A DNA stretch of 64,000 bases from a bacterium (GTDB lineage Bacteria; UBP14; UBA6098; JAFGQG01): NCBI GenBank assembly GCA_016935765.1, contig JAFGQG010000066.1, forward strand, positions 1 through 64,000, read 5' to 3'. The notes beneath the pieces were generated by a model, which was given only the letters and a program-made list of their open reading frames with translations, searched no databases and was not told the origin of the DNA. Position numbers and translations under genes: made by a program. Shown here in pieces: positions 2,694 through 10,995 of this stretch. Every line of letters begins with the position of its first letter. Within the stretch, counting starts at the first letter, position 1.

Positions 2694-3986
2694 ATGAAAA
2701 TTGGGATAAAGACATTTGGCTGCAAGTTGAACCAGTATGAAGGCGAAGGGATACGGGAAGTCCTGATAGAAAACGGCAACCAGATAATACCAGACGATGA
2801 ACTGGCGGATTTTTATATCATTAATGGGTGCTCTGTAACAAAACGCGCGGAACAAAAAGCTTTCCAATTTATCAGGAAGATCAAGCGTAAGTTTCCTTCA
2901 TCGCGGGTCATACTGACCGGTTGTCTTGGAACTCAGGCTCAGAGAGGGATTATTGAAGCGCATGAAGTCGATTACGTGATTCCCAATTCAAAAAAGTACC
3001 TTATCGATACTGTGATTTCAGGCGGGGAAGAGAGTATAGCTGGGACTGATGATATTAAATGGTACGATATTAAAAATTTTTCTGAGCATACCAGGGCTTT
3101 CGTGAAGATACAGGATGGATGCGATAACCGCTGCGCTTATTGCATAGTTCCAATAATCAGGGGCGATAGCCGCTCAAGACCTATTGATGAAATAATAAAG
3201 CAGGTTCAGAAGCTGCACAAAGCTGGATTCAAAGAAGTGGTATTAACGGGGGTTAACATAGGTTCATACAGGCATAAGCAGGCTGGAAATGTCTTTAGGC
3301 TGGAGGACTTACTGCAAAAACTGCTGGCTGAAACAGAAATCCAGAGAATTCGCCTGAGTTCGATGGAGATCGATGAGATTACTGAAAACCTGGTGAAGGT
3401 GATTGAGAGCGGAGGAACGAGAATAATGCACCATTTTCACCTGCCTCTTCAGAGCGGAAGCGATGAGATACTTAGACGAATGAAAAGGAAATATGATTCT
3501 ACTCAATACGCTGCAGTGATCGAAAGGATGAGGAGCTCTTTTCCGGAGGCTATGTTCGGCGCTGATGTTATAGTAGGGTTTCCCGGTGAGAAGGACATTC
3601 ATTTCAGAGAGACTTATAATTTGATAGAGAAGCTTGGGATTCAGCATCTTCACGTGTTCAGGTATTCATCCCGACCGGGAGTTGCTGCTGAGAGGCTGAA
3701 AGATGATGTGCCTGGGGATTTAAAGAGAACGCGAAGCAGGCAGCTTTACCAACTTGGGGAAAAGAACAAGGGGAAGTTTATCTCCTCATTTGTGGGGAAG
3801 AGGTTACGAGTGCTATTTGAGGAGGAGATTGAGAAGGGAGTATGGCGTGGTTTTTCCGGTAATTTTATCAATTGTTTTATAAATTGTCAAGAGAATTTGA
3901 AGAACCAGGTTTGGGAAGTGGAAGGATTGAAAAGTTTAAAAAACAAGCTAAAGGTCAGTATGGAGAGTGATGAATGCATTTCTTGA
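2694..3986 (+). CDS. mtaB: tRNA (N6-L-threonylcarbamoyladenosine(37)-C2)-methylthiotransferase
   Basis: Radical-SAM methylthiotransferase of 430 residues. The N-terminal UPF0004 domain has three cluster cysteines in FGCKLNQYE, NGCSVTKRA and TGCLGTQAQ; the radical-SAM cysteines are C143, C147 and C150 (GCDNRCAYC). FGCKLNQ is the MtaB-type opening, in contrast to the YGCQMN of MiaB found 4 kb downstream. It would convert t6A37 to ms2t6A37 in ANN-decoding tRNAs using SAM and two Fe-S clusters. The C-terminal TRAM-like part (about 370-430) is short. It is divergent from lpxH, and its 3' end overlaps the antiporter gene by 13 bp, suggesting translational coupling. No clear Shine-Dalgarno precedes the ATG. 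Confidence 0.9.
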   Translation: MKIGIKTFGCKLNQYEGEGIREVLIENGNQIIPDDELADFYIINGCSVTKRAEQKAFQFIRKIKRKFPSSRVILTGCLGTQAQRGIIEAHEVDYVIPNSKKYLIDTVISGGEESIAGTDDIKWYDIKNFSEHTRAFVKIQDGCDNRCAYCIVPIIRGDSRSRPIDEIIKQVQKLHKAGFKEVVLTGVNIGSYRHKQAGNVFRLEDLLQKLLAETEIQRIRLSSMEIDEITENLVKVIESGGTRIMHHFHLPLQSGSDEILRRMKRKYDSTQYAAVIERMRSSFPEAMFGADVIVGFPGEKDIHFRETYNLIEKLGIQHLHVFRYSSRPGVAAERLKDDVPGDLKRTRSRQLYQLGEKNKGKFISSFVGKRLRVLFEEEIEKGVWRGFSGNFINCFINCQENLKNQVWEVEGLKSLKNKLKVSMESDECIS

Positions 3987-5698
3987 GTGAGCAAAACATC
4001 TACATTTTCTTAGTCCAGATATTTGTTTTATTAGCGCTTGCGAGAGGCTTGGGTGAACTGTTTCGCAAATGGAAGCAACCGGCTTTCACAGCGGAAATAC
4101 TTGTGGGGATAATTTTAGGACCTACAATTTTAGGTCGCTTTCTTCCAGGTTTGTATAACGCAATATTTCCCGATAATATAATTCAGCAGAATATGCTGGA
4201 GACAATTGCTTGGTTAGGATTGCTGTTTTTTTTACTGAATATCGGATTAGAAGTTGATTTCTCGAGCGCATGGAGACAACGTGGAGATGCTTTAAAAATT
4301 GCATTAACCGATATTATAGTACCGATCTCCATTTCATTTGCCGCGTGTATGTTTTTACCTGAACACTACTTGATAGATCCTAACCAGAGGATTGCATTCG
4401 CATTATTTATGGCGACTGCTATGACCATCAGCGCTATGCCTATAGCTGCAAGGGCACTGCATGACCTAAAGTTATCCAAAACCGATCTTGGATTCCTTAT
4501 TGTGTCAGCGCTATCAGTTAACGATATCATTGGCTGGTTGGTTTTTACGCTAGTATTAGGCTTTTTTACACAGACTTCATTAGATATCCCACGGATACTT
4601 GTGATAATGGCTTCAACGTTCGCCTTCACAGTTGTCTGTTTAACGGTAGGAAGAAACTTGATTGATTGGGTAATTTCCAAAATTGAAAAAATGCAATTAC
4701 CCCAACCTGCTACAACTCTTACTTTCGTAAGTCTTCTTGGCCTTCTATGTGGTGCGATTACACAGAAAATTGGAATTCACGCGCTTTTTGGTTTTTTCAT
4801 AGCAGGCATAATGGCAGGAGAAGCAAAAGCTTTATCCGAGAGAACGCGCCAGGTGATATCCCAGATGGTTTATGCTATATTCATTCCGCTATTTTTTGCC
4901 GGTATTGGGCTTAAGATAGATGTTTTAAGGAATTTTGATATCTTTCTTGTACTGTTTGTCAGTATTATCAGCATGTTCGGGAAATTTCTCGGAGCTTGGA
5001 TTGGGGTGAAATTCACAAAATTATCCAGGGCAAATCGCCTTACTGTTGCCATTTGCCATGTCCCTGGTGGTTCGATGGAGATAGTTGTCGGTTTGCTTGC
5101 TTATGAATACGATCTTATTTCTGAACCAGTGTTCGTTGCCATTGTCTTTGGCGCAATCGCATCCTCTGTTCTACTCGGTCCAATACTGAGTTTTTCGAAT
5201 AAAAGAAGAAAAGCCAGAAGCATTTTAGAATTCTTTATGAGAAGAGGGATCGAGGCTGAACTTGAAGCAAACAGTAGAGATGATGCAATTCGTGAACTGA
5301 GCAGAATAGCGGCAGAGCAAGAGGAAATTCCCGACCCAAGCGGTATCAGCAACCCAGTATTAAAACGCGAAAATGCCATGGGAACAGCAATTGAAGAAGG
5401 AATTGCATTGCCGCACGCGCGATTATCACTTTTGAAAAGACCAATTATTATTTTCGGAAGGTCATCGTCAGGGATCGAATGGAATTCCCCCGATGGAAAA
5501 CCAACAAAATACATCTTCCTTGTATTAACTCCATCCGATGATGATGATATTCAGCTTCAAATATTCTCTATAATTGCTAAAGTGATGAGTATTCCGGAAA
5601 ACAGGGATAGGATTATTAAAGCTGACGATAGTATTGAGATATGGACTGCTTTTCAAAATATGTTTACCAGTAGTCAAATAATCAGGAAAAACATGTAG
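3974..5698 (+). CDS. Kef-type cation:proton antiporter fused to a PTS EIIA-like domain
   Basis: 574 residues. Residues about 10-400 form a CPA2 (Na_H_exchanger) membrane domain of about 12 hydrophobic segments, including an AFALFMATAMTISAMPIAARAL stretch typical of Kef/NapA carriers and SVNDIIGW, where ND sits at the position expected for ion-binding acidic residues. Residues about 420-560 form a cytoplasmic EIIA (fructose/nitrogen, PTS_EIIA_2) domain with the conserved IALPHARL motif; His481 would be the phosphorylatable residue. The protein would exchange monovalent cations for protons, gated by phosphorylation. The ATG at 3974 overlaps the end of mtaB and has GGAGAG six bases upstream. The next gene also carries an EIIA domain, so the two may share one phosphate-donor signal. 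Substrate ion and donor are not deducible. Confidence 0.85.
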   Translation: MHFLSEQNIYIFLVQIFVLLALARGLGELFRKWKQPAFTAEILVGIILGPTILGRFLPGLYNAIFPDNIIQQNMLETIAWLGLLFFLLNIGLEVDFSSAWRQRGDALKIALTDIIVPISISFAACMFLPEHYLIDPNQRIAFALFMATAMTISAMPIAARALHDLKLSKTDLGFLIVSALSVNDIIGWLVFTLVLGFFTQTSLDIPRILVIMASTFAFTVVCLTVGRNLIDWVISKIEKMQLPQPATTLTFVSLLGLLCGAITQKIGIHALFGFFIAGIMAGEAKALSERTRQVISQMVYAIFIPLFFAGIGLKIDVLRNFDIFLVLFVSIISMFGKFLGAWIGVKFTKLSRANRLTVAICHVPGGSMEIVVGLLAYEYDLISEPVFVAIVFGAIASSVLLGPILSFSNKRRKARSILEFFMRRGIEAELEANSRDDAIRELSRIAAEQEEIPDPSGISNPVLKRENAMGTAIEEGIALPHARLSLLKRPIIIFGRSSSGIEWNSPDGKPTKYIFLVLTPSDDDDIQLQIFSIIAKVMSIPENRDRIIKADDSIEIWTAFQNMFTSSQIIRKNM

Positions 5699-5810: not shown

Positions 5811-6521
5811 ATGGAAAGAAATCCCGTTATGACTACCAGGGAACTTGCTCGTTATATTAAACTTAACGAGAAAACCGTGCTCCGTATGGCGCAGAATGGA
5901 CAAATCCCGGGAGTTAAAATAGGAAACCAGTGGCGATTTCATTTGGCATCCATAGACAGATATCTGCAAACTGATTTGATGGAATCGTCAAATGCTGATT
6001 TGGATTTGATAATAAGCACAAAGGAAAATGTCATTCCTTTGTCTAGGTTGACAGACCTTCCTTTCATGGAATTGACTTCCCCTGCAAAAACTTCGGACGA
6101 CGCACTTGCTGAATTGAGTAAGATAGCTTATGATAGCGGATTGACTCCTTCAGACGGTAAGCTTGTAAAGCTGCTAAAACAGCGTGAAAGAATGTTAAGT
6201 ACTGCCGTATGCAATGGAGTTGCATTTCCTCATCCCAGGCATCCTTCTCCTGAGTTGTTCAAAGAATCCAGGATAATTATTCTTCGTTCTGAAAAAGGCA
6301 TTGATTTTAAGGCTCCTGATGGTAAATTAGTGAGACTATTTTTTATGCCATGTACTCCAAATGAATTTGACCATGTCAGATTGTTAGCAAAAATTTCCAG
6401 ACTACTTCATACCCCAGGTATGGTGGATAAGATCATGAATCTGGAGACCAGGGAACAGGTTATGCAGCTTCTTCTGGAATTTGATAGAGAGCATTTTTTT
6501 ATTAATAATAAATCTCTATAA
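5811..6521 (+). CDS. Helix-turn-helix DNA-binding protein with a PTS EIIA-like domain
   Basis: 236 residues. The N-terminus (about 6-55) is an excisionase/MerR-type HTH (HTH_17): TTRELARYIKLNEKTVLRMA followed by the wing GVKIGNQWRF. Residues about 90-230 resemble PTS EIIA of the mannitol/fructose/Ntr class, with VAFPHPRHPS giving a conserved His141 where EIIA is phosphorylated. No EI, HPr, EIIB or EIIC gene is in the window, so this looks like a phosphorylation-sensing transcription regulator rather than a sugar permease part. It has a strong AGGAGG ribosome-binding site and its own promoter, directly after the EIIA-fused antiporter, which is the obvious candidate target or partner. Family members of this HTH plus EIIA build are known mainly from genome annotation. 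Confidence 0.8.
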   Translation: MERNPVMTTRELARYIKLNEKTVLRMAQNGQIPGVKIGNQWRFHLASIDRYLQTDLMESSNADLDLIISTKENVIPLSRLTDLPFMELTSPAKTSDDALAELSKIAYDSGLTPSDGKLVKLLKQRERMLSTAVCNGVAFPHPRHPSPELFKESRIIILRSEKGIDFKAPDGKLVRLFFMPCTPNEFDHVRLLAKISRLLHTPGMVDKIMNLETREQVMQLLLEFDREHFFINNKSL

Positions 6522-6589
6522 TATTCAGAGAATTAAAGGCGGTTTTTTATAGTCAGACCTACATGGTAAAATTCTGGAAGTAAATGTTA

Positions 6590-7936
6590 ATGGAATTAAG
6601 AGAAAATTACCAAAAGGGCGCTAGAGTACTCATTAGAACTTATGGCTGCCAGATGAACAAGTACGATTCTGAGTTGCTGATGGGTATTCTGGTCGATAAT
6701 GGATACCGGCTGGTCGATTGCGAGAGGGATGCTGATGTTATCCTGGTGAACACATGTTCGGTTCGGGAACATGCTGAAAAGAGGGCGTTAGGCAGGCTGA
6801 GGCAATTCGTGGGGATGAAGAGCAATAAGCCGGGTCTGATAGTGGGTGTGTATGGCTGCATGGCTCAGAGGTATGGCGATGAAATGCTGAAGGAAGTCCC
6901 GGGTATCGACATTGTCGCAGGTCCCGATTCCTTCCCACGAATACTGGAAGCTGTTCGGAACGCTGAAAGCTCTGCGCAGATCTGCACTACCCTGGGGGAT
7001 TTCGATGGTGAAGGATGGCGGCCATACCGTAAGACAAACTCACTATCCGGTTGGTGCGCGATTACCAGGGGCTGCAATAATTACTGTTCATACTGTATCG
7101 TACCTTATGTCCGCGGTCACGAGAGAAGCCGCCCTCTCGACGATATCATTCGGGAAGTAGAATCCGCAGTTCAACAAGGCGTGCGGGAGATCACACTTCT
7201 CGGACAGAACGTGAACTCGTATTTCGATGGCGAACACGACTTTGCCGACCTTCTTAAAGCTGCGAATGATATCGAAGGTCTCTGGCGTATCAGATTCGCG
7301 ACCAGTCACCCGAAGGACTTCTCCGACAAACTAATTTCAGCGATGAGAGAATTGCCTAAAGTCTGTGAACATGTTCATCTGCCAGTTCAAGCGGGATCCA
7401 ATAGAATATTAAAGTTGATGAACCGTGGCTATTCCCGGGAAGATTACCTGGAACTTGTTGATAAGATCAAGGACAACGTCAATGGAGTGGCTTTGACTAC
7501 TGACCTTCTCACGGGATTCCCTACTGAAAATGAGGAGGATTTCGAGCAGACACTCGATTTAATGAAAAGTGTTAAGTATTCAGGAGCTTTTACGTTCAAG
7601 TATTCGCCTCGACCGGGGACAAAGGCTGCGGAAATGGAAAATGATGTTCCAGAAAAGACCAAGATCAGCCGGTTGGAGCAAATGATAAAAGTACAGCAGG
7701 AGTCAGCTGCAGAATTCAGCCGGAATCTGGTGGGAACTACCCAGGAAGTGATGTTTGAAGAGAATTCACCGAAAAATCCACGGAACATGAGGGGGAGAGC
7801 GAGAAACGGAAAGATAGTGGAAGTCACCGGTGAAGGGATTAAAAAGGGTGATGTATGGACGGTGAAGATAAATGACGCTCAAACATGGGTGCTATTTGGT
7901 GAGAAGATAGATAAGCTAATTGATAATCGCCAATAG
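6590..7936 (+). CDS. miaB: tRNA-2-methylthio-N6-dimethylallyladenosine synthase
   Basis: Radical-SAM methylthiotransferase of 448 residues from the start chosen here. It shows the MiaB-type opening RTYGCQMNKYDSE, the further UPF0004 cysteines in NTCSVREHA and YGCMAQR, the radical-SAM triad in GCNNYCSYCIVP, and a C-terminal TRAM domain (about 375-445) ending GDVWTVKI. It would methylthiolate i6A37 of UNN-reading tRNAs. Two ATGs are available, at 6584 and 6590; the GGAAG at 6576-6580 is three bases from the first but nine from the second, so I prefer 6590. It is the second methylthiotransferase in 4 kb. The following ParB-like gene starts 13 bp after its stop and is probably in the same transcript. 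Confidence 0.92.
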   Translation: MELRENYQKGARVLIRTYGCQMNKYDSELLMGILVDNGYRLVDCERDADVILVNTCSVREHAEKRALGRLRQFVGMKSNKPGLIVGVYGCMAQRYGDEMLKEVPGIDIVAGPDSFPRILEAVRNAESSAQICTTLGDFDGEGWRPYRKTNSLSGWCAITRGCNNYCSYCIVPYVRGHERSRPLDDIIREVESAVQQGVREITLLGQNVNSYFDGEHDFADLLKAANDIEGLWRIRFATSHPKDFSDKLISAMRELPKVCEHVHLPVQAGSNRILKLMNRGYSREDYLELVDKIKDNVNGVALTTDLLTGFPTENEEDFEQTLDLMKSVKYSGAFTFKYSPRPGTKAAEMENDVPEKTKISRLEQMIKVQQESAAEFSRNLVGTTQEVMFEENSPKNPRNMRGRARNGKIVEVTGEGIKKGDVWTVKINDAQTWVLFGEKIDKLIDNRQ

Positions 7937-7949
7937 AGAGGTATATGAA

Positions 7950-8924
7950 ATGAAATATGAACATGAATTAAGAGCACTGAAAATTACAGAGATAAACCTT
8001 GCTGATCAAAGATTCAATTTCAACTATCAGCCTAACCTGGAAACATTGAAAAACTCGATACGAAATATCGGTATGCTTCAACCGCTTCTTGTCTATGAAA
8101 GTGAAAATAAAGAGTCTCTTATTTTGGTTGATGGATGGAGAAGATTGAATGTACTCCAGGAGTTAAAAATAAAAGAATTTATGTGTATAATAATCAAGAA
8201 TTGTGATTTCCCGGATCTATTGTCTATTTATTTTAACATTAATACTAATAATCGTCAATATAATATTATCGAACTAAATATAATAATTAAAAAACTTAAG
8301 ACCGATTTTGCTTTAGGCAATAATGATATTATAACAAATTATTTTAATTATGTCAATATAAATAAGTCCAGCGAACTTTTTAGCCAGATAGAGAGACTGA
8401 ATGGACTTATCGACCCGATGAAGCCCATCATCCTGAATAACGGGATAAACCTCGCAAATGCCGTTGCAATTTCCAGCCTTGCGCAGGCAGACCAGGAAGC
8501 TATACTCACTTTGCTTTCGACCCTGAAATTAAACGCCAATAAATTGAAAATTATGCTTCTTAATCTTGATGAAATTTCTAAAAGGGATAATATTACTATT
8601 GCAGAAATCGTTGAAAGTATTGGATTAAAAGGTATCTTAAAGGAACCAGACCTGACGGAGAACCAGAAAATCGAGAGAATTCTGAATAGTATTGATAGTC
8701 TTAGGTATCCTGAATATACGGAGTTGAAAGGGAAGTTGAAATCGTTAAATAAAGCTTTAAGCATTCCACCGGGGATGAAATTTGAAACTCCAGAATTCTT
8801 TGAAGGGGACAAGTTTAAAATAGAATTTGGTTTCAAGGATAAAAAGGACTTGAAAGAATCGGTCGAGAAACTCAAGGAAATGCTGAATAAAGAGGAGTTG
8901 GATAGGATATTGGATATGTTCTAA
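7950..8924 (+). CDS. ParB/Srx-like N-terminal domain protein
   Basis: 324 residues. Residues about 8-95 look like a ParB/sulfiredoxin-fold nucleotide-binding domain: a short strand followed by LKNSIRNIGMLQPLLV, then ILVDGWRRLNVLQEL, where plasmid and chromosomal ParB have the GxRR-type box. The remaining two thirds are helical and AT-rich in coding, with IGLKGIL and a lysine/glutamate-rich tail, and show no ParB centromere-binding HTH that I recognise. I chose the ATG at 7950 because GAGAGG lies eight bases before it; an upstream in-frame start at 7920 would overlap miaB. It is followed after 14 bp by a radical-SAM SPL-family gene, and no ParA is present, so partitioning is unlikely. Function unknown; nucleic-acid or CTP binding is inference from the fold. 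Confidence 0.65.
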   Translation: MKYEHELRALKITEINLADQRFNFNYQPNLETLKNSIRNIGMLQPLLVYESENKESLILVDGWRRLNVLQELKIKEFMCIIIKNCDFPDLLSIYFNINTNNRQYNIIELNIIIKKLKTDFALGNNDIITNYFNYVNINKSSELFSQIERLNGLIDPMKPIILNNGINLANAVAISSLAQADQEAILTLLSTLKLNANKLKIMLLNLDEISKRDNITIAEIVESIGLKGILKEPDLTENQKIERILNSIDSLRYPEYTELKGKLKSLNKALSIPPGMKFETPEFFEGDKFKIEFGFKDKKDLKESVEKLKEMLNKEELDRILDMF

Positions 8925-8938
8925 CTCTGGATTGCTGA

Positions 8939-10030
8939 ATGAAAACACCACGAGTAAGTAAGATCATTGTCAGGAATGATGTCGCGGAGAATACCCAGGT
9001 GAAGTTGATTCTGAACAAATTTAATGAATCAACAATTATTCCTGGGGATGATTTTATCCTGCCGGAACATGTGGAGGAAAATGGAACTGGTCTATCCCTG
9101 CATCTTCAGCAGTATAAGGGAGATTTTCTTACAAAATGCCCTGGAACGCAAAATTATATATGCTGCGGGTACAAGGTGCTTTCTACAGTTCTGAATTGCA
9201 ATCTGGGTTGCAGCTATTGTGTGCTTCAGGGCTACTACAAAACTCCAGTTGTAACAGTAAACGTAAATGTCGATGACCTTATTGCGGAGTTGAGTAGAAA
9301 GTTAAGCACAAGCAGCACGGTCTTTTACAGAATTGGAACCGGGGAGTTCAGTGATAGCCTCGCTTACGAGGAGGTATTAGGTTTTGCGGAGTTACTCGTT
9401 CCTTATTTTTCAAAGAGAAGCAACGTGATATTCGAATTGAAGACTAAGACTGACAACATACAGAGATTACTGGAGACCGAGCATGGCAGCAATATAATGG
9501 TATCCTGGTCAGTCGCGCCGGAGAGGATAGTAAAATCGGAGGAGAGAATAACAGCTGCTCTGGAATCGAGACTAAAAGCAGCCAGAAGATGCCAGGAAGC
9601 GGGTTATCTCCTGGGATTGCACTTTGATCCGATGATCTATTACCCGGAATGGGAAATCGAATACAAGAACCTGGTAGATAGGATATTTTCATACATAGAT
9701 CCGCGCAAAGTAGTCTGGATAAGCCTGGGCGCGTTCAGGTTTCCCGCAAAATGGAAGGAGATAATGCTCCAAAATTATCCGGATAGCAAAATATTCTACG
9801 GTGAATTCTTCCCGGGTCTGGATGACAAATTGCGCTACCTGAAACCGATCAGGGTAAACATGTTCAGGAAGATGTATGAATGGTTGAAAAGTATAGATAA
9901 GAACCTTTTCATATACCTATGTATGGAATCGGATAGCGTATGGAAAAAATCGTTCGGGTGGTCGCCCGGAAATACTGCGGGATTAAGTAAAATGCTTGAC
10001 GAAAGATCAAAAATCATGATAAAAACATGA
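8939..10030 (+). CDS. Radical-SAM protein of the spore photoproduct lyase (SPL) family
   Basis: 363 residues with the radical-SAM triad C87, C91, C94 (CNLGCSYC) and the flanking pattern KCPGTQNYICCGY, which supplies three further cysteines (C67, C75, C76). The downstream motif YRIGTGEFSDSLA is characteristic of SPL-like proteins found in non-sporulating bacteria. Spore photoproduct lyase repairs the thymine dimer of UV-exposed spores; the wider family is assumed to act on nucleic acids but mostly lacks an assigned substrate. The start has only a weak CTGG upstream. It sits 14 bp behind the ParB-like gene and in front of a terminator-like hairpin, so these two genes form the end of a transcript. 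No sporulation genes are in view. Confidence 0.8.
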   Translation: MKTPRVSKIIVRNDVAENTQVKLILNKFNESTIIPGDDFILPEHVEENGTGLSLHLQQYKGDFLTKCPGTQNYICCGYKVLSTVLNCNLGCSYCVLQGYYKTPVVTVNVNVDDLIAELSRKLSTSSTVFYRIGTGEFSDSLAYEEVLGFAELLVPYFSKRSNVIFELKTKTDNIQRLLETEHGSNIMVSWSVAPERIVKSEERITAALESRLKAARRCQEAGYLLGLHFDPMIYYPEWEIEYKNLVDRIFSYIDPRKVVWISLGAFRFPAKWKEIMLQNYPDSKIFYGEFFPGLDDKLRYLKPIRVNMFRKMYEWLKSIDKNLFIYLCMESDSVWKKSFGWSPGNTAGLSKMLDERSKIMIKT

Positions 10031-10078: not shown

Positions 10079-10287
10079 TGGATGAATGAATGGGTGGATG
10101 CCTGGATGACTGAAAAAAATAAAAACTATAAGGTCAACCTTTTAAATATTAAATTGACTCGATCATACAAAGGAAAACTGGATATATAAACTTATTAAAA
10201 CATATAGTTTCAATTAAAATTAGACTAAAGAGGTACTTTAATATAAAACCCCCAAAAAACAAAGAATAACAACCATCCATTCATCCA
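10079..10287. repeat. MITE-like intergenic element with GGATGAATG ends
   Basis: The left end (10079 on) is built from GGATGAATGAATGGGTGGATG and a further GGATG; the right end (10273-10287) is CCATCCATTCATCCA, the inverted counterpart. The roughly 170 bp between them are very AT-rich and have no open reading frame with coding character. A similar pair of motifs flanks 12324-12543. The rest of the 335-bp gap up to the nucleosidase gene holds only the small TAAGAAT/ATTCTTA hairpin at 10323-10340. Confidence 0.45.
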
Positions 10288-10365: not shown

Positions 10366-10995
10366 ATGATTTTAATAGTATTACCCTTAAAAACCGAATT
10401 TAATACCTGGATTAAATTCCTTGATAAAGTGGAGCCTGCTGAAATCAAGCGCTTCTATAAAGCCAGGTTGGGGGAGAGTACGGTCCTGACAACGTATGGA
10501 GGACTGGGTTACAGGATATTGAGAAGAATAAAGGAAGGGATTGACAATTTCGATATTGACAGGATCGTGCATATCGGTTCAGCAGGCAGCTTGAATCCCG
10601 AATTGAAGGTCGGCTCGGTGGTCCTGGCAAAGGATGTATTGATTAAATCCGAAAGGATCGCCATGGACTTCAATAATTTCGAGGAGCTAGATTTCGAAGA
10701 TAGAATAAGTAACAGTATCCATCTGGTTCCGGGCAGGATTTTAACCCTGAAGACACCCGTGTTTTCTAAAGCAAAGGCGGAAGAACTTCATAAAGAATAT
10801 GGTGCGGATTGCGTGGATATGGAAAGCTACTATGTTGCAAAATTTTGCAAAGGGAAAGAAATTCCCTGCTTGATTTTAAGGGGGATATCCGATTTCTCAG
10901 ACCACAAAACCCCTGGGACCTGGAAAAAGAATCTGAAATTGGCTATTGGAAATTGTTTTAAAGTGGTAAAGAATCAGTTGAATAGTGTAAATTGA
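10366..10995 (+). CDS. Nucleoside phosphorylase / MTA-SAH nucleosidase-like protein
   Basis: 209 residues of the PNP_UDP_1 fold. It shows the glycine pattern TYGGLGYR and IGSAGSLNPELKVGSVV typical of the nucleoside-binding pocket, a VDMESYYVAKFC helix equivalent to the ribose-binding MEG/MES motif of MTA/SAH nucleosidase and futalosine hydrolase, and LRGISDFSD with the catalytic aspartate at the usual place. It would cleave or phosphorolyse the glycosidic bond of a purine nucleoside. Which one (methylthioadenosine, S-adenosylhomocysteine, futalosine or another) cannot be read from the sequence. The ATG has AGAGGA six bases upstream and a small hairpin (10323-10340, CGAA loop) lies in its leader. 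It stands alone, converging on a decayed gene; proximity to radical-SAM enzymes, which release deoxyadenosine, is suggestive only. Confidence 0.75.
   Translation: MILIVLPLKTEFNTWIKFLDKVEPAEIKRFYKARLGESTVLTTYGGLGYRILRRIKEGIDNFDIDRIVHIGSAGSLNPELKVGSVVLAKDVLIKSERIAMDFNNFEELDFEDRISNSIHLVPGRILTLKTPVFSKAKAEELHKEYGADCVDMESYYVAKFCKGKEIPCLILRGISDFSDHKTPGTWKKNLKLAIGNCFKVVKNQLNSVN

Follow-up and report, generated by a model that had tools for sequence, protein, structure and literature searches.

A ParB-derived orphan protein, a radical-SAM enzyme of the SPL family (rSAM), a GT2 glycosyltransferase and a purine nucleosidase are encoded by genes that recur together in many distant bacteria, being linked in chromosomes and co-occurring across genomes, with the nucleosidase and GT2 genes fused in two loci. 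We put at about even the chance that they form one conserved chromosomal module, in which a SAM-consuming radical modification would be coupled to glycosylation. The window, i.e., the whole stretch of 64,000 nucleotides that was analysed, is contig C130 of a host genome of 3.98 Mb in 200 contigs. No published description of such a module was found in the open-access literature searched, nor any open-access paper treating SPL, ParB and radical SAM together or an "SPL family radical SAM". Judged from that literature only, the four-gene set corresponds to no type of system known so far.

A recurrent gene pair and its surroundings

A reading of this DNA made from the sequence alone (the sequence-only reading) had placed a ParB/Srx-type gene 14 bp from an rSAM gene with the SPL signature. 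These coordinates were confirmed, the ParB-like frame having its first ATG at 7950, an upstream TTG at 7920 and a stop ending at 8924, and the rSAM its ATG at 8939; both Pfam ParB_N and SPL are matched above their cut-offs (Table 1).

Table 1. Position of the genes, domains and residues discussed in the text, with the evidence for each.
Feature	Position	Strand	Evidence
MiaB tRNA methylthiotransferase	6584..7936	+	NCBIfam; directly 5' of ParB-like gene
ParB-derived orphan protein, 324 aa	7950..8924	+	Pfam ParB_N; profile-profile match, tree, Foldseek
ParB_N / CTPase-fold segment, residues 8-86	7971..8207	+	Pfam; motif comparison
C-terminal segment (PEFFEGDKFKIEFGF...), marker of ParB subfamily, weakly like ParB C-terminal domain	8760..8879	+	Profile hit extents
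SPL-family radical-SAM enzyme, 363 aa, without SPL catalytic cysteine	8939..10030	+	Pfam SPL; NCBIfam; Foldseek
C67...C75C76 (KCPGTQNYICC), family-specific cysteines	9137..9166	+	Conservation in 76 relatives
CX3CX2C (C87, C91, C94), SAM-binding [4Fe-4S] cluster motif	9197..9220	+	Invariant in 76 relatives
E136, position of SPL catalytic Cys141	9344..9346	+	Alignment to SplB C141
C328 in LCME motif, M329 and E330 invariant	9920..9922	+	Conservation in 76 relatives
Purine nucleosidase PF01048, nearest NCBIfam HpnG, probable fourth component	10366..10995	+	Pfam, NCBIfam

The pairing of the two genes is recurrent and real. Among relatives, which were drawn from whole genomes and named contigs (Desulfobacteraceae, a Pseudomonadales MAG and two marine MAGs), a first profile detected a ParB-like gene within the three genes 5' of the rSAM in 44 of 76 rSAM loci. 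Where exactly one of each is present, the ParB-like gene lies directly upstream and co-directional in 39 of 46 loci, so that the adjacency on which the sequence-only reading had staked itself is frequent. A 4-bp overlap is the commonest spacing (13 of the 39 adjacent pairs), and the distance matrices of the two proteins are correlated (Spearman 0.51, equalled in 0 of 2000 permutations), in a test which, like the Fisher tests given below, does not fully correct for shared ancestry. The pair is otherwise flanked by differing genes among relatives. Kinase/response-regulator-like and aldo/keto-reductase-like genes, which belong to common families, occur near a few rSAM loci.

In a sister genome of the same family (L021), the order is miaB-parB-rSAM-nucleosidase. 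The miaB gene found there at the same place is 69% identical; as a neighbour kept within the same family only, it is not considered part of the module. The nucleosidase gene of the window starts 335 bp past the rSAM gene and had been set aside as separate, behind a terminator-like hairpin. It is counted in despite this gap, because the nucleosidase and rSAM genes of L021 share a 4-bp overlap at the rSAM stop. Moreover, the hairpin found no backing in a terminator scan of 3.4 kb, which returned two terminator-like sites vs 2.2 expected, none of them in the gap. Most of that gap is spanned by an 18-nt inverted repeat (89%; arms at 10079-10096 and 10270-10287, with 173 nt between them). Elsewhere in the host genome, a second PF01048 nucleosidase is encoded on contig C177, and the rSAM profile has no second match at E<=1e-20. 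Further upstream in the window, Pfam identifies a sodium/hydrogen exchanger fused to PTS EIIA-2 (3974-5698) followed by an HTH_17 protein fused to EIIA-2 (5811-6521), i.e., tandem EIIA-2 proteins with no sugar transporter context.

A lyase-like enzyme and a partition-like protein, both altered

The rSAM belongs to the SPL family (Pfam PF20903, 87.7 bits for a cut-off of 27, E=9e-25) and its predicted model, of moderate confidence (pLDDT 65), matches SPL in Foldseek (E=1e-14). With SplB (PF20903, TIGR04070) it shares the radical-SAM fold, the CX3CX2C motif and the Lys, Arg and Glu of the SAM site (K170, R211, E202). It differs by remaining under the equivalog cut-offs of NCBIfam (104.6 vs 400 bits for TIGR04070, photo_TT_lyase; 49.1 vs 437.55 for TIGR03886), by a non-sporulating host and other partners, and by several residues, as judged by alignment to the annotated SplB of Bacillus velezensis. 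At the position of SPL Cys141, the catalytic H donor, stands a Glu, E136 in the window, which is Glu in 75 of the 76 relatives and Gln in the remaining one; the position of Tyr99, a link in the radical-transfer chain, is V95 in the window and Tyr in about 15 of the 76; and the RRYKWGRYGIG stretch of SplB is six residues shorter. In B. subtilis SPL, loss of Cys141 or Tyr99 abolishes SAM regeneration, one SAM being used per turnover (PMC3742179). With the SPL cysteine gone, and the SAM-recycling tyrosine gone in most cases, the enzyme of the window would consume SAM and not recycle it.

The three extra cysteines listed by the sequence-only reading fared unequally, as conservation among the 76 relatives is high for C67 (96%) and C76 (93%) and lower for C75 (about 82%), while C328 (97%) had been missed. 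C67 and C76 are missing from SplB and from TIGR03886-type and TcmP-linked SPL relatives, and thus mark an rSAM subfamily; together with C328 they make up three cysteines that are extra relative to SplB, and these three could possibly form a second metal site.

Other SPL-like proteins present different combinations of these residues. L034 (8417-10662) holds a different SPL-like rSAM, whose gene overlaps one for a protein identified by eye as TcmP-like; as in the window, a partner gene adjoins, the Cys141 position is Glu and C328 is kept, whereas the partner is of another family and C67 and C76 are missing. L032 (8448-10655) encodes a 735-aa protein, apparently a fusion of two radical-SAM halves, of which the second is SPL-like and has a Lys in place of Cys141. 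Distant SPL-like proteins are also found in two human-gut phage contigs (L126, i.e., MT835514, and MT835770) and in a Fusobacterium vincentii record (L125), those examined having Tyr at the Cys141 position.

Taken as repair, the sequence-only reading amounts to a model in which the two proteins act on damaged DNA independently of light and the ParB-like one brings an SPL-type lyase to the lesions. That both predicted models bear the SPL and ParB folds agrees with it, but the repair chemistry of SPL, an enzyme acting on thymine dimers, fits poorly with the replacement of Cys141 by Glu, the widespread loss of Tyr99 and the shortened RRYKWGRY stretch, and lesion reversal has no place for a glycosyltransferase or a nucleosidase. 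Furthermore, the host genome (about 90% complete) has no match to Spo0A_C, on which ground a link with sporulation was rejected. We consider such repair very improbable.

ParB is known as a clamp in DNA segregation. The protein of the window matches ParB_N in Pfam (E=2.7e-7, 31 bits, cut-off 26.3), and this domain is followed by an HTH-derived helical domain and a ParB-like C-terminal domain. A profile-profile alignment of its subfamily with canonical ParB extends over 253 columns, the C-terminal domain among them (E=1.6e-27), although that domain alone gives a weak match (probability 33%, E 5e-4), and matches of canonical ParB end near profile position 205 whereas those of the subfamily reach 322. 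The ParB/Srx fold expected by the sequence-only reading was recovered by structure prediction, where a moderately confident model (pLDDT 68) has its best Foldseek matches in ParB and Noc (E about 1e-6). In a tree, 38 subfamily members split from 19 canonical ParBs of such genomes with a support of 100/100; branches within the subfamily are long and their internal order is poorly resolved.

Compared with chromosomal ParB and Noc (TIGR00180, TIGR04285), the subfamily retains the N-terminal ParB fold, the helical domain in the middle and probably also the C-terminal one, but it evolves fast on its own branch and has lost many canonical residues. GERR reads GWRR in the window, where G62 and R65 are kept and the Glu is lost; across the subfamily, the canonical E82, R120, N159, R162 and QPR are not conserved, G81 and R84 are kept, and the ENxQR arginine is displaced by one position. 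Having lost N159 and R162, the recognition helix is deprived of most of its parS-recognition residues. The partner of the rSAM is a ParB paralogue of full length that stands well apart from the canonical ParBs and in which the CTP and parS-recognition signatures are eroded; with several CTP-motif residues also lost, the role of DNA-binding recruiting factor suggested by the sequence-only reading finds no support here. That reading was right in seeing no ParA gene beside the ParB-like gene. The canonical ParA-ParB pair of the host genome sits on contig C199, and a canonical partition system was therefore rejected. Orphan ParB-fold proteins are widespread and bind CTP, ATP or GTP, according to a 2025 survey (PNAS 2025, PMC12704722), and the subfamily resembles these proteins, whose nucleotide choice varies, in being a ParB homologue outside parAB. 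The main text of the survey names no radical-SAM, photoproduct or nucleosidase partner, and "glycosyl" occurs in its reference list only.

The DNA-related ancestry of both SPL and ParB also invites another explanation, the hypermodification of DNA or of another nucleic acid, in which the rSAM would functionalize a base, the GT2 glycosylate it and the ParB paralogue direct the enzymes to DNA. K297 (75/76), R299 (74/76) and Y300 (76/76), which occupy the place of the C-terminal segment of SPL, are indeed conserved, and GT2 enzymes are able to glycosylate varied acceptors. On the contrary, the lack of conservation of the ParB recognition helix, the lack of any PADLOC defence-family match, the lack of recurrent restriction or phage genes in the clustering of neighbours and the failure of the window rSAM query to find a viral contig make it fairly unlikely. 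Two other candidates were rejected. A viral or mobile origin was dismissed because the viral_contigs set yielded no match to the window rSAM, the two distant phage records were the only ones found otherwise, and the ParB protein had no phage match. A known defence system was dismissed because PADLOC has no model for the rSAM and the ParB matched only a generic MTase_II, weakly (E=6e-4).

Glycosyltransferase and nucleosidase as proposed further members

Clustering of the genes around the 76 rSAM loci brought out two more that recur. One GT2 subfamily of about 280 aa (motifs SVIIPTYNR, CEDYDLWLR and KxGGHxDQLS) is encoded immediately 5' of ParB in 17 loci, and a PF01048 nucleosidase lies at most six genes away in 18, where gene density predicts about 0.5-1.2 loci. 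Nucleosidase and GT2 form a single fused protein in L018 and L097. Operons apart from the rSAM also combine these genes, with GT2-ParB in L171 and L181 and nucleosidase-GT2 in L185. Several kinds of nucleosidase, HpnG/MTAN-like or MTAP-like, are represented in the operons, and phosphorylases of the MTAP type adjoin some members (L114, L116). In the host genome the GT2 is on another contig (C13, E=7e-120) and was thus outside the view of the sequence-only reading. In L173, L175 and L180 (family f8), the gene 3' of the unlinked GT2 gene encodes a protein of 373-382 aa with HEAT-like repeats.

Linkage is not required for co-occurrence, as the GT2, ParB-like and rSAM subfamilies are often found together while unlinked, the host genome included. 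Of 386 profiled genomes, 91 encode the rSAM (E<=1e-60), 72 the GT2 and 57 the ParB subfamily, which was called by full-length or C-terminal coverage, so that divergent or truncated copies are undercounted (e.g., G033/L031). In tests that leave shared ancestry out of account, on genomes that are mostly from different families, GT2 and rSAM coincide in 64 genomes vs 17.0 expected (p=5e-42), ParB subfamily and rSAM in 55 vs 13.4 (p=1e-39), and ParB and GT2 in 45 vs 10.6 (p=9e-29); all three are present in 44 genomes, including G000. As a control, flagellin and rSAM coincide in 39 of the 386 genomes vs 35.1 expected (p=0.39); with flagellin also absent from the host genome, flagellin glycosylation was rejected. 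The GT2 is missing from 27 of the 91 rSAM-positive genomes and a ParB-subfamily match from 36, some being missed through divergence or broken contigs; therefore, the rSAM can act alone or the set varies. The GT2 subfamily occurs in G205, G251, G112 and G344 with no rSAM match at E<=1e-20, and in G046, again with no rSAM match, the contig breaks inside the adjacent ParB-like gene.

These counts also bear on a narrower explanation, in which the ParB-rSAM pair alone is functional and the other two genes are incidental or serve housekeeping, through 5'-deoxyadenosine clearance or surface glycosylation. It accommodates the minority of loci in which GT2 and nucleosidase are linked, as well as the ubiquity of PF01048 proteins (13 of 14 control genomes). 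It does not account for the co-occurrence, even unlinked, of one GT2 subfamily rather than GT2s generally, nor for the two nucleosidase-GT2 fusions and the separate GT2-ParB operons, and is quite unlikely.

A possible pathway and its meaning

In the proposed four-component module, the rSAM would consume SAM and either release 5'-deoxyadenosine or transfer a 5'-deoxyadenosyl group. The nucleosidase would then hydrolyse 5'-deoxyadenosine or the 5'-deoxyadenosyl product, thereby removing 5'-deoxyadenosine or adenine, and the GT2 may glycosylate what the radical step yields. As for the ParB paralogue, it would act as a nucleotide-controlled scaffold or substrate adaptor and not as a parS clamp.

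Comparable partnerships are known from HpnH-HpnG-HpnI in hopanoid synthesis and MqnE-MqnB in the futalosine pathway, which join a radical-SAM enzyme to a PF01048 nucleosidase and, for hopanoids, also a GT2; the present module differs by its radical-SAM family and its ParB-derived partner. By analogy, the rSAM could attach 5'-deoxyadenosine to a small molecule or lipid, from which the nucleosidase would strip adenine to leave a ribosyl group that the GT2 extends. HpnG as the nearest NCBIfam of the window nucleosidase, the loss of the SAM-recycling residues and the nucleosidase-GT2 fusions, which suggest successive steps on one intermediate, are all in line with this adenosylation and deadenylation. 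We nevertheless think it unlikely, as the rSAM is related to MqnE and HpnH at the superfamily level only, no part is explained for ParB, and the MTAP-type phosphorylases better fit plain clearance of 5'-deoxyadenosine. Free 5'-deoxyadenosine acts as an inhibitor of radical-SAM enzymes, and MTA nucleosidases or phosphorylases dispose of it (PMC8102628), which makes sense of the several nucleosidase kinds found beside the rSAM.

The sequence-only interpretation is thus partly supported and shifts from a repair pair to a proposed four-component module; instead of DNA repair, its genes probably encode a biochemical pathway that has yet to be described. We would give slightly less than an even chance to the fuller proposal of a widespread pathway that has co-opted a ParB paralogue to serve rSAM and GT2 as a scaffold under nucleotide control. 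The product of that pathway would be a new compound, macromolecule or nucleic-acid base that is both radically modified and glycosylated. All four components look soluble and suited to expression and assay. As roughly one in four of the bacterial genomes sampled encodes the rSAM, an unassigned pathway of such breadth would represent a sizeable gap in bacterial biochemistry. If true, ParB would enter enzymology and an SPL-type enzyme would gain a new reaction, and "spore photoproduct lyase" annotations in non-spore-formers may be misnomers.
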